Of a DNA stretch of 64,000 nucleotides, positions 53,388 to 56,644 are shown piece after piece (position 1 is the stretch's first letter; each line of letters starts with the position of its first letter). Origin of the DNA: Planomonospora sp. ID67723 (GTDB taxonomy: Bacteria; Actinomycetota; Actinomycetes; Streptosporangiales; Streptosporangiaceae); assembly GCF_015711605.1 (NCBI RefSeq), contig NZ_JABTEZ010000002.1, positions 1,054,001-1,118,000 on the forward strand. Reading direction: 5' to 3'. The notes beneath the pieces were generated by a model that searched no databases, had not been told where the DNA came from, and saw only the letters and a list, made by a program, of their open reading frames with translations. The position numbers and the translations under genes were made by a program.

Positions 53388-53465
53388 CGTTACGTCACCG
53401 AGTTTTTCACCGATCATATGACCCTCGTCACGCCCAAGTGGTCTGTACCAATTAAGGTGGGACCC

Positions 53466-54896
53466 GTGACTCGTCGCGCGAAAATCGTCTGCACCCTAGG
53501 TCCCGCCACCTCCTCACCCGAGCGCCTCCGCGAACTCATCGCCGCAGGCATGGACGTGGCCCGCTTCAACCTCAGCCACGGCAGCCACGAGCTGCACAAA
53601 GAGGTCTACGACAGGGTGAAGGAGGTCGCCGCCGACCTCGGCCGCGCCGTAGGCGTGCTCGCCGACCTGCAGGGCCCCAAGATCCGGGTCGGCAAGTTCG
53701 AGGAAGGCCCCGTCCGCCTCGGCTTCGGCGACGTCTTCACCATCACCACCGAAGAGGTCCCCGGCGACCGCGAGCAGGTCTCCACCACCTACCTCGGCCT
53801 CCCCAAGGACGTCCGCCCCGGCGACAGCATCCTCGTCGACGACGGCCGCGTCCACCTCGAGGTCACCCGTGTCGACGGCCCCCGCGTCACCACCCGCGTC
53901 GTCATCGGCGGCATGATCTCCGACAACAAGGGCCTCAACCTGCCCGGCGTCAACGTCAGCGCCCCCGCCCTCACCGACAAGGACGAATCCGACCTCCGCT
54001 GGGCCCTGCGCACCGGCTTCGACCTCATCGCCCTCTCCTTCGTCCGCCGCCCCTCCGACGCCGACGTCGTCCGCAACATCATGGAACAGGAGGGCGTCCG
54101 CCTCCCGCTCCTCGCCAAGATCGAGAAGCCGCAGGCCGTCGACCGCCTCCCCGAGATCATCGAAGCCTTCGACGGCATCATGGTCGCCCGCGGCGACCTC
54201 GGCGTCGAGCTCCCCCTCGAAGAGGTCCCCATCGTGCAGAAGCGCGCCATCGAGCTCTGCCGCGAGAAGGCCCGCCCCGTCATCGTCGCCACCCAGATGC
54301 TCGACTCCATGATGAGCGCCCCCCGGCCCACCCGCGCCGAGGCCTCCGACGTCGCCTACGCCGTCATGGACGGCGCCGACGCCGTCATGCTCTCCGGCGA
54401 GACCTCCGTCGGCAGCTACCCGATCGAGTCCGTCGCCACCATGAGCCGCATCGCCACCGCGGCCGAGCAGTCCGTCCTGGAGGCCACCCACAGCCTCGAC
54501 CGGCTCCCGGAGACCACCGGCGGCGCCATCGCCCGCGCCGCCGCCGAGGTCGGCGCCATCGTCGGAGCCAAGGCCCTGGTCGCCTTCACCATGTCCGGCG
54601 AGACCGCCCGCCGCCTGGCCCGCTACCGCTCGCCCATCCCGCTGCTCGCCTTCACCTCCGCCGCCCACGTGCGCGGTCAGCTCGCCCTCACCTGGGGCGT
54701 GGAGACCTTCGAGGTCCCCTTCGTCCACCACACCGACGACATGGTCCGCCAGGTCGAGGCCGCCCTCCTCGCGCACGCCCGCCTCGAGAAGGGCGACAAG
54801 GTCGTCATCGTCGCCGGCTCCCCGCCCGGCACCGCCGGCTCGACCAACGCCCTGCGCGTCCACACCATCGGCTCCGCCGTCGCCCACCCCGCCTGA
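53466..54896 (+). CDS. pyk: Pyruvate kinase
   Basis: The 476-aa enzyme converts PEP and ADP to pyruvate and ATP. It starts MTRRAKIVCTLGPATSS and contains the active-site LAKIEKPQAVDRL, MVARGDLGVELP and ATQMLDSMM loops. GTG 53466 is preceded by AAGGTGGGA; the upstream ATG 53418 in the same frame is not favoured. Length is typical. Confidence 0.96.
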   Translation: MTRRAKIVCTLGPATSSPERLRELIAAGMDVARFNLSHGSHELHKEVYDRVKEVAADLGRAVGVLADLQGPKIRVGKFEEGPVRLGFGDVFTITTEEVPGDREQVSTTYLGLPKDVRPGDSILVDDGRVHLEVTRVDGPRVTTRVVIGGMISDNKGLNLPGVNVSAPALTDKDESDLRWALRTGFDLIALSFVRRPSDADVVRNIMEQEGVRLPLLAKIEKPQAVDRLPEIIEAFDGIMVARGDLGVELPLEEVPIVQKRAIELCREKARPVIVATQMLDSMMSAPRPTRAEASDVAYAVMDGADAVMLSGETSVGSYPIESVATMSRIATAAEQSVLEATHSLDRLPETTGGAIARAAAEVGAIVGAKALVAFTMSGETARRLARYRSPIPLLAFTSAAHVRGQLALTWGVETFEVPFVHHTDDMVRQVEAALLAHARLEKGDKVVIVAGSPPGTAGSTNALRVHTIGSAVAHPA

Positions 54897-54995: not shown

Positions 54996-55763
54996 TCAGT
55001 ACTTCGGCCCCACGAACCCGTCCAACCGCTCGACGGCCTCCCGCCGCGCCACGGAGACGGCGTTGTGCCGCGAGTAGCGCCAATCCACGCCGAGGAGGGT
55101 GAGTGCCTCGCCGCACAGTTCGAGGATGTCCCTGGACTCGTTGGTGAACAGATAACGGGGATATTCGTACCAATGATCACTGCCGTTGAAGTGGCGGCGG
55201 ACGCGGTTCATGCTCCGGCAGCCGTCCGAGTGCATCAGACCTCGGACGAAGAGTCCTGGATGCTCCTCCGAGATCTCTCGCTGCCATGGCTCTAGCGTGA
55301 TGCGGCGCTCGTGTTTCCGGCCGGGACCGTGCTGGGGGAACAGGCAGAGCCAGTGCTTGGAGTAGCTCTTGACCTCTGTGCAGCCCTGGAGGGAACGGCG
55401 GCTCACGGATGATGTCGGCATCACCGTTGCCATCGTGTCCGCAGCGGCTTCTATCAACCCGGGCCAATCATTGCCGCAGAAGAGGGAGAGCTGATAGACG
55501 CCTTTCCGGCAGAGGACGATGTGACCGTCGCCCAGGTAGAGCCCGAGCAAGTAGGCGTAGGCTTCATGATCCAGCTCCCGTCCGTGGCAGCGGGGGCATG
55601 AATGATGCCTCCTGACGTCCTCGTCGTTGTTCGTACGCCGCGACCCTGTCCGCCACTTCTGTACGGCGCCGAGAGAGACGCCGCAGAGGTCGGCGACTTC
55701 GCGATCGACCAGACCGAGGGCGGAGAGGCGGAGGGCACGGTCAACGGTCTCACGGGGGTGCAT
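54996..55763 (-). CDS. HTH protein with LAGLIDADG-like motifs
   Basis: From ATG 55763 the product is 255 aa; ATG 55775 and a farther start at 55817 are alternatives. It begins with a helix-turn-helix (SALGLVDREVADLCGVSLGAVQKW), then a short CPRCHGRE zinc-like knuckle, and two segments that read as LAGLIDADG motifs: YLLGLYLGDGHI and FVRGLMHSDGCRS, each with a Gly-Asp/Ser-Asp acidic end. This architecture suggests a homing-endonuclease-derived DNA-binding protein or regulator, not known to be mobile. Local base composition is less GC-rich than its neighbours. It lies beside a tRNA gene. No intron or intein is evident. Confidence 0.7.
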   Translation of the reverse strand: MHPRETVDRALRLSALGLVDREVADLCGVSLGAVQKWRTGSRRTNNDEDVRRHHSCPRCHGRELDHEAYAYLLGLYLGDGHIVLCRKGVYQLSLFCGNDWPGLIEAAADTMATVMPTSSVSRRSLQGCTEVKSYSKHWLCLFPQHGPGRKHERRITLEPWQREISEEHPGLFVRGLMHSDGCRSMNRVRRHFNGSDHWYEYPRYLFTNESRDILELCGEALTLLGVDWRYSRHNAVSVARREAVERLDGFVGPKY

Positions 55764-55824
55764 GGGATCGACCATGCCAGTTGTCACCGACAGTTCTCGC
55801 GCAGTCGCAGAAAGCACTCAAGGG

Positions 55825-55858
55825 GCGGGGTCACCCGACCCTGGTCGGGTGACCCCGC
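55825..55858 (-). terminator. tRNA terminator hairpin
   Basis: GCGGGGTCACCCGACC (55825-55840) and its complement (55843-55858) form a 16-bp stem with a very short loop. On the minus strand it lies just past the tRNA 3' end and separates it from the LAGLIDADG gene. Confidence 0.65.
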
Positions 55859-55864
55859 TATGTG

Positions 55865-55938
55865 TGCCCCGAGTGGGATTCGAACCCACACTGAATGGAT
55901 TTTGAGGCCATCGACTCTGCCGATTGGTCTATCGGGGC
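55865..55938 (-). tRNA. tRNA-Leu(CAA)-like, short variable loop
   Basis: On the minus strand, 74 nt fold as acceptor GCCCCGA/TCGGGGC, a 3-bp D-stem (GAC/GTC), an anticodon stem with the 7-nt loop CTCAAAA (one C-U mismatch above it) and T-arm GTGGG-TTCGAAT-CCCAC, discriminator A. The anticodon is CAA (55904-55902), which reads UUG Leu. CCA is not encoded. Leu tRNAs normally have long variable arms, but only five bases separate the stems here, so identity or function is uncertain. Confidence 0.8.
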
Positions 55939-56043: not shown

Positions 56044-56050
56044 CTTGCTC

Positions 56051-56644
56051 GTGAGTACGCAGCGGCGAGTGGTGATCGCGGAAGACGAGGCGCTGATCCG
56101 CCTCGATCTCAAGGAGATGCTGGAAGAGGACGGGTACGCCGTCGTCGGGGAGGCCGGGGACGGGGAGGCGGCGGTGAAGCTGGCCTCGGAGCTCAGGCCC
56201 GATCTGGTGATCCTGGATGTGAAGATGCCCGTGCTGGACGGGATCTCGGCCGCCGAGCAGATCGTGTCGCAGCGGATCGCGCCGTGTCTGATCCTGACGG
56301 CGTTCTCGCAGCGGGATCTGGTGGAGCGGGCGAGGGACGCCGGTGCGATGGCGTACCTGGTGAAGCCGTTCACGAAGTCGGATCTGGTTCCGGCGATCGA
56401 GATGGCGGTGAGCCGCCATGAGGAGTTCGCGGCGCTGGAGCGGGAGGTGGGGACCCTCTCGGAGCGGTTGGAGACGCGCAAGCTGGTGGAGCGGGCGAAG
56501 GGGCTGCTGATGGCGGAGCACGGGTGGAGTGAGCCGCAGGCGTTCCGGTGGATTCAGAAGGCGTCGATGGATCGGCGGCTGAGCATGCGTGAGGTGGCTC
56601 AGATCGTGGTCGGGTCGGCTTCCGGGGGCGAGGGGGAGGGCTGA
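56051..56644 (+). CDS. pdtaR: ANTAR response regulator (PdtaR-like)
   Basis: The 197-aa protein has a receiver domain with phospho-acceptor Asp56 (LVILDVKMP), acidic ED pair near residue 13 and a Lys in YLVKPFT, followed by a C-terminal RNA-binding ANTAR domain (about 135-190; RKLVERAKGLLMAEHGWSEPQAFRWIQKASMDRR). ANTAR proteins bind dual-hexaloop hairpins to block termination. The TTG at 56045 is a poorer start. Gene order (pyk, tRNA, this regulator, liv) matches other actinomycetes as I recall. Its kinase is not nearby. Confidence 0.9.
   Translation: MSTQRRVVIAEDEALIRLDLKEMLEEDGYAVVGEAGDGEAAVKLASELRPDLVILDVKMPVLDGISAAEQIVSQRIAPCLILTAFSQRDLVERARDAGAMAYLVKPFTKSDLVPAIEMAVSRHEEFAALEREVGTLSERLETRKLVERAKGLLMAEHGWSEPQAFRWIQKASMDRRLSMREVAQIVVGSASGGEGEG

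Follow-up and report, generated by a model that had tools for sequence, protein, structure and literature searches.

A short-armed tRNA-Leu(CAA) next to pdtaR and the exchange of two tRNA body plans at one actinobacterial locus

The window analyzed here, a stretch of 64,000 nucleotides from the genome of Planomonospora sp. ID67723, contains a tRNA gene that combines a leucine anticodon, CAA, with the short variable loop of a class I tRNA. The question raised by this locus is whether such a tRNA is an ordinary leucine tRNA or, as proposed in the first-pass annotation, a noncanonical, weakly charged or repurposed one.

In the accessible part of a 2023 review, leucine tRNAs without a long arm appear in animal mitochondria only, and our search of the open-access literature yielded no paper that treats bacterial class I tRNA-Leu genes as a family, only incidental mentions. 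An older tree paper marks, in the portion available, some short-armed Tyr, Leu and Ser tRNAs (PMC2474678), and a mycobacterial tRNA cluster contains, according to the accessible text, a tRNA-Leu(TAG) with a short variable loop (PMC6582537). The latter resembles the window tRNA in joining a leucine anticodon to a short variable loop but, as far as that text goes, is an extra cluster copy beside a long-armed isoacceptor, whereas the window gene is the only CAA gene found and occupies a conserved locus. In the available excerpt of another study, tRNA-Leu-2, 3 and 5 of M. tuberculosis are singled out in passing as long-looped, implying that the other leucine tRNAs of this bacterium would be short; the family, its locus and its distribution are absent from that mention (PMC11541572). 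Some phage records annotate short genes as tRNA-Leu, so that single members are plainly visible to anyone; the short-armed family, its locus and its switching seem to have gone undescribed so far.

The tRNA gene and its fold

ARAGORN predicts one tRNA in the whole 64-kb window, tRNA-Leu(caa) at 55864-55938 (-), and the Rfam model RF00005 matches 55865-55938 (-) with a score of 53.6 bits (E 9.9e-09). The gene, its parts and its neighborhood are as follows (window coordinates).

53418-54896 (+): pyruvate kinase gene (pyk; Pfam), a conserved neighbor present at 70 of the 135 related loci
55825-55858 (-): perfect 15-bp hairpin just 3' of the tRNA, without a U run (fold)
55865-55938 (-): class I tRNA-Leu(CAA), positions 1-73 (ARAGORN; Rfam RF00005, 53.6 bits; covariation)
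55865-55865 (-): discriminator base A73 (position parse)
55873-55889 (-): T-arm, GTGGG-TTCGAAT-CCCAC (position parse, covariation)
55890-55894 (-): variable loop TCAGT, 5 nt, the last base of which, U48, pairs with A15 (position parse)
55895-55911 (-): anticodon arm with a C.T mismatch at 31-39 (position parse, covariation)
55902-55904 (-): anticodon CAA (ARAGORN)
55913-55929 (-): D-arm with pairs 10-12/23-25 and the loop CAATCGGCAGA, including C13, A14, A15, G18, G19 and A20a (position parse)
56045-56644 (+): gene for a pdtaR-like response regulator (Response_reg and ANTAR domains; Pfam), the divergent neighbor by which the conserved locus is recognized, present at 120 of the 135 related loci

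The variable loop of 5 bases is well short of the long arm of class II tRNA-Leu (at least 10 bases) and, together with the cloverleaf, corresponds to class I (4-5 bases), as indicated by ARAGORN, Rfam, the position parse and covariation. Neither ARAGORN nor Rfam gives a long arm under alternative boundaries at 55865-55938, so the possibility raised in the first-pass annotation, that different boundaries might restore a normal arm, did not materialize. The features that this annotation had reported, namely the class I shape, the CAA anticodon, the 5-nt variable loop and the 3-bp D-stem, are confirmed by ARAGORN, Rfam and the position parse. The D-stem comprises pairs 10-25, 11-24 and 12-23, one fewer than the four of a class I tRNA, with C13 located opposite A22; a fourth pair would require an A to be bulged out. 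The linker preceding the D-stem, TA, is of the A8-A9 type. The CCA end is absent from the gene, with CAC following A73. The 3' hairpin is a possible terminator or processing signal; consensus scans identified no terminator near the tRNA gene and no sigma-70-like promoter for it.

To assess the fold, we used a diverse selection of 45 class I CAA sequences. Across this set, 98.6% of the cells in the cloverleaf are paired, 184 cells are changed on both sides, with such changes present in 16 of the 20 pairs, and none of the 500 shuffles equaled the covariation of the cloverleaf on any measure. The pair equivalent to 31-39, which is mismatched in the window, is unpaired in 10 of the 45. The unconstrained minimum-energy fold of the window tRNA has another shape (-28.9 vs -24.8 kcal/mol for the cloverleaf); unmodified tRNA transcripts can prefer non-cloverleaf folds.

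The open reading frame adjoining the tRNA, 54996-55817 (-), shows weak matches, below the Pfam cut-offs, to HTH_23 and LAGLIDADG_3. Of the 135 related loci, 34 contain a relative of this frame, which may encode something like a homing endonuclease with a tie to the tRNA locus.

The tRNA-Leu(CAA) locus has switched repeatedly between short- and long-armed forms

A BLAST search with the tRNA gene produced matches in 42 of 60 relatives; among the 30 loci kept, including that of the window, 29 encode tRNA-Leu(CAA) and one encodes tRNA-Leu(UAA), all short. A pattern scan of named genomes retrieved at least 120 stretches and, among the matches listed, ARAGORN called a short tRNA-Leu(CAA) in 118, the two without such a call being L164 and L204. 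The holders among the matches listed include Streptomyces, Kitasatospora, Mycobacterium, Corynebacterium, Bifidobacterium, Nocardioides, Micromonospora, Cellulomonas, Frankiaceae, Nanopelagicaceae and others, and class I CAA genes next to pdtaR are found also outside the class Actinomycetes (L266-L270). The gene of Microbispora bryophytorum is identical to that in the window. The conservation in relatives that the first-pass annotation had named as support is thus borne out by BLAST, the pattern scans and the pdtaR locus, and class I tRNA-Leu(CAA) emerges as a widespread bacterial exception within well-studied genera.

Two contigs from metagenome-assembled genomes labelled Bifidobacterium breve (L197) and Streptomycetaceae (L200) carry a tRNA identical to that of a Nanopelagicaceae contig (L226); these bins look contaminated. 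The 11.85-Mb sequence NZ_LT559118.1 of Nonomuraea gerenzanensis is a plasmid entry in PLSDB and looks like a chromosome.

In the Planomonospora genome (99.83% complete assembly, 9 contigs), Rfam yielded 67 tRNA matches and ARAGORN, run on the fetched stretches, 68 genes. Six of the latter are leucine tRNA genes and a single one has the CAA anticodon; a pattern for long-armed CAA tRNAs has no match anywhere in this genome. The second, normal CAA tRNA that the first-pass annotation would have taken as support was accordingly not found elsewhere in the genome.

The long-armed CAA tRNAs of other genomes occupy the same place beside pdtaR. This gene lies within 1 kb of 168 of the 182 class I and 37 of the 45 class II CAA loci, counts in which some sequence pieces are too short to hold pdtaR and several genomes enter the class II set twice. 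Our first whole-genome pattern was too loose, matching 120 of 120 genomes without discrimination. With the final patterns, among 197 genomes of Actinomycetes, class I CAA was matched in 111 and class II CAA in 48. Both were matched in one genome only (G321), the class II match of which is not called a tRNA by ARAGORN, so no verified overlap was observed among the 197 genomes, which are not statistically independent of one another. Of the 39 genomes matched by neither pattern, we inspected 20 and found a CAA tRNA beside pdtaR in 19 (12 class I and 7 class II), which the patterns had missed because of small differences in the T-stem or D-loop; the 3.6-kb piece of the remaining genome contains no CAA tRNA. 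Allowing a mismatch in the class I pattern gave, in 20 genomes (one of which, G496, already had a class II match), a single match, which was not a tRNA according to ARAGORN. When stricter or different patterns were applied across the phylum, class I was detected in at least 19 and class II in at least 192 of 296 genomes.

We mapped the two classes onto a tree of the PdtaR-like protein, a quick FastTree reconstruction from one protein with 191 columns and 194 sequences (12 identical proteins were left out of the initial 206 rows), 30 of them from class II loci. At least 19 class switches are required on this tree, and at least 10 when well-supported branches alone are counted; gain and loss of the long arm are indistinguishable here. 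Shuffled class labels give a mean of 28.4 changes, and none of the 500 shuffles was as low as 19. Thus, class is clustered on the tree yet changes often, and the actinobacterial tRNA-Leu(CAA) locus has switched repeatedly between the short- and long-armed shapes. This amounts to a natural experiment, in which one locus and one codon are combined with two tRNA bodies and many exchanges under one LeuRS, and the family allows an in vivo test of the purpose of the long arm.

Leucine identity, the meaning of UUG and the function of the window tRNA

Using a position parse, we compared 181 class I CAA copies (all of the 182 except L282) with the 45 class II copies. The variable loop is 5 nt long in all 181 class I and 13-15 nt in all 45 class II copies. 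A14, A15-U48, G18G19 and A73 are present in every copy of both classes (181/181 and 45/45), where U48 was preset by the pattern for the 120 loci from the named-genome scan and free for the loci from BLAST and the Actinomycetes scan, AGAC was preset by the class II search pattern, and A14, A15 and A73 were preset by no pattern. A20a, which is present in the window tRNA, is found in 176/181 class I and 43/45 class II copies. By contrast, A9 (177/181), C12-G23 (179/181) and C13 (181/181) of class I are opposed to G9 (45/45), G12-C23 (45/45) and G13 (43/45) in class II. The core bases differ and the identity bases are kept, and therefore the body appears to have been rebuilt with the leucine signals retained. 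In short, the window family shares with bacterial class II tRNA-Leu(CAA) the anticodon, the pdtaR locus, A73, A14, A15-U48 and G18G19, and differs from it in having a 5-base loop, A9, C12-G23 and C13.

According to the available text of a review (PMC9976931), A73 matters for E. coli LeuRS, whereas the anticodon and the long arm do not; A15-U48, G18G19 and A20a are essential in E. coli tRNA-Leu; variants lacking the anticodon arm and the long arm remain active; and the sequence and folding of the long arm do not track leucylation. Table 1 of the same review, in the part available, lists a large variable region among the bacterial leucine elements (PMC9976931). For E. coli, the text of this source thus speaks against the premise that bacterial LeuRS needs the long arm, its table notwithstanding. 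All elements under the E. coli rules (A73, A15-U48, G18G19, A20a) are present in the window tRNA, with the caveat that these rules do not come from an actinobacterial LeuRS. Within the Planomonospora genome, A14, A15, U48 and A73 occur jointly in 5 of the 6 leucine genes versus 2 of the 62 others (Lys-UUU and an array Ala-UGC); the exception is Leu(UAG), which has G15-C48 in place of A15-U48. A single LeuRS gene above the family cut-off is present among the matches listed (C3:193175-195616), the others being below it.

Four relatives (G003, G012, G033 and G036) encode a second LeuRS-like gene above the family cut-off.

The meaning of the codon was assessed by aligning ten window genes with the 135 related loci (259 alignments with identity of at least 55%). 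TTG codons of the relatives are opposite leucine in 244 of 314 cells (78%; 82% for the CTC/CTG control), and the only three TTG codons of the window genes in 106 of 119 (89%; 77% for CTC/CTG), cells that are not independent of one another. UUG is leucine in this organism.

On these grounds, we consider it highly probable (roughly 0.88) that the window tRNA is a functional, leucine-charged decoder of UUG that belongs to a lineage of leucine tRNAs with a short variable arm. The structure, conservation, locus, mutual exclusion of the classes, retained identity bases and UUG-leucine alignment were computed; charging by LeuRS, its efficiency, the essentiality of this tRNA and the reason for the switching are what we infer. 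The likely mechanism would involve recognition by LeuRS of A73 and the D-loop/T-loop core (A14, A15-U48, G18G19, A20a), all kept in the window tRNA. The LeuRS of the cell would not need the long arm, so that a class I body with the rebuilt core (A9, C12-G23, C13) could replace a class II body. The points against an ordinary leucine tRNA are the E. coli origin of the rules together with the table of the review, G15-C48 in the UAG tRNA, the non-cloverleaf fold, the 31-39 mismatch and the lack of a match to a sigma-70-like promoter.

Three other readings were weighed and all were rated low. The least improbable of these, itself very unlikely, is close to the proposal of the first-pass annotation: a weakly charged or repurposed tRNA-like RNA, such as a regulator or a donor in the chemistry of cell walls or antibiotics, in which case a different tRNA would read UUG. 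The unusual shape and the relatives of the same shape in phages and tRNA arrays are compatible with this possibility, and wobble could, in principle, allow the UAA tRNA of the genome to read UUG as well. However, the gene is the only one with CAA found in the genome, it is broadly conserved next to pdtaR, class II CAA tRNAs substitute for it one for one at the same locus, and the LeuRS signals and anticodon-loop features are retained. The presence of these signals in 181 of 181 copies and the replacement of one class by the other suit an ordinary leucine tRNA and leave the proposal of weak charging or repurposing unsupported; taken as a whole, the earlier interpretation is partly supported and the observation behind it confirmed.

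Streptomyces has dedicated mistranslation tRNAs, and a tRNA of this kind in the window would insert an amino acid other than leucine at UUG. A class I body, which most non-leucine tRNAs have, would fit this still less probable role. Outside the anticodon and variable region, however, the window tRNA comes nearest, within its genome, to the class I Leu(UAA) (70%), with a mean of 68% for the class II CAA set and with Glu(UUC) close behind at 66%; moreover, A73 and A15-U48 are present in 181 of 181 class I copies, and TTG aligns with leucine about as often as CTC/CTG. Finally, a degenerate pseudogene, marked by broken stems and lack of conservation, has next to no probability: the 31-39 mismatch and the divergent minimum-energy fold point that way, but the gene is no pseudogene because cloverleaf pairing and two-sided changes hold in the 45 relatives, and this reading is already contradicted by conservation, including the identical Microbispora bryophytorum gene and the status of the window gene as the only CAA gene found.

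The family is also a warning that a short leucine tRNA which annotation singles out as odd can be the one with the housekeeping role. The closest known parallels differ from the window tRNA in several respects. Animal mitochondrial tRNA-Leu also lacks the long arm but is an organellar molecule with a partly unfolded anticodon branch, whereas the window tRNA is chromosomal and has a well-conserved cloverleaf; the identity of human mitochondrial tRNA-Leu(UUR) depends on A73 and A14, according to the available text (PMC9976931). A known recent derivative of a Met tRNA has the CAA anticodon and no long arm as well, but is hardly expressed, whereas the window tRNA retains the leucine signals.

Short-armed leucine tRNAs in the genome, in phages and in tRNA arrays

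The CAG (84 nt) and GAG (86 nt) leucine tRNAs of the Planomonospora genome are long-armed, whereas the UAA, UAG and CAA tRNAs belong to class I, with 74 nt each without CCA trimming. A second CAG tRNA, 76 nt long and short-armed, lies inside an odd tRNA array (C1:932408-933183). In each of the 41 genomes of the family, pattern scans matched one or more long-armed leucine tRNAs with the anticodon CAG or GAG (in one case CAA); short-armed matches, as lower bounds, amount to 18 genomes for CAA, 23 for UAG, 18 for UAA and 6 for CAG. No long-armed UAA was matched among the 41 genomes, the matched UAA tRNAs (18/41) being class I. One relative (G013) combines a class II CAA tRNA with class I UAA and UAG tRNAs, so the isoacceptors change class independently of one another, and both shapes must be accepted by a single LeuRS. 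In actinomycetes, the UAA tRNA (bldA) is known to act as a developmental switch, and the class I UAA tRNAs in this family give the short-armed form a bearing on codon-level control in these bacteria.

The bldA counterpart, tRNA-Leu(UAA), and tRNA-Leu(UAG) of Planomonospora, both class I, map to C1:121485-121558 (-) and C1:2483776-2483849 (-), respectively. The array at C1:932408-933183 contains divergent extra Val, class I Leu-CAG, Gly, Gln, Gly, Pro and Ala tRNAs that duplicate normal isoacceptors. Other oddities of this genome include a low-scoring extra CAT tRNA beside Arg-GCG (C5:542137-542209) and paired Arg-TCG and Arg-GCG genes, likewise low-scoring, whose D-arms are unusual (C2:124864-125111).

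Short-armed relatives are found in phages from several phyla, too. The window tRNA gene matches 52 of 50,697 phage records, and all 11 phage stretches that we fetched contain, by ARAGORN, a short tRNA-Leu (UAA, UAG, GAG or CAA). The hosts of these phages are Mycobacterium, Pseudomonas, Prochlorococcus, Myxococcus, Bacillus, Enterococcus and Streptomyces, in addition to one gut phage. A signature scan of viral contigs retrieved at least 120 stretches, and a pattern spaced one base differently added 4, for 124; among the matches listed, 118 of the 124 have a short tRNA-Leu at the signature, with the anticodons UAA (81), CAA (20), UAG (10), GAG (5) and CAG (2). These tRNAs share the D-loop/T-arm signature of the window tRNA, for example, GGCAGAG and AGTGTGGGTTCGAATCCCAC, but are located on phage contigs and mostly carry UAA (81/124 among the matches listed). 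The median GC content of the viral stretches is 0.42 among the matches listed, and therefore many such phages probably do not infect high-GC actinobacteria. Beyond Actinomycetota, our records of class I tRNA-Leu come from phages only. Short CAA tRNAs are present also inside chromosomal tRNA arrays (L170 and L214).

These relatives bear on the origin of the class I gene at the pdtaR locus, which could have lost its arm in place, many times, or could have arisen by exchange of the whole gene for a pre-existing class I gene, such as one from a phage or a tRNA array. Arm loss in place is possible, if doubtful: both classes occupy the same locus, and the anticodon stems of class II genes are slightly nearer to class I of the same family than to class II of other families (11 of 19 cases). 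However, the acceptor stems track class rather than family (14/19), the rebuilt core is common to all class I copies, and class I relatives exist in phages and arrays. With all stems pooled, this test comes to 10 versus 9 across the 19 cases, in which some loci were given family codes by assumption. More tentative still is a broader scenario, in which the short-armed leucine tRNAs would be a single lineage that moves among phages, arrays and chromosomes and repeatedly takes over essential leucine loci, making the long arm an optional, switchable part in bacteria. Enzymes that recognize the arm might be what drives the switch, through tRNA-cutting or tRNA-modifying toxins, phage defense, or discrimination from SerRS.

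Both forms can occur side by side in one virus: Pseudomonas phage ZC03 encodes a long-armed tRNA-Leu(UAG) and a short-armed tRNA-Leu(UAA) (L337:328-411 and 590-666, respectively).
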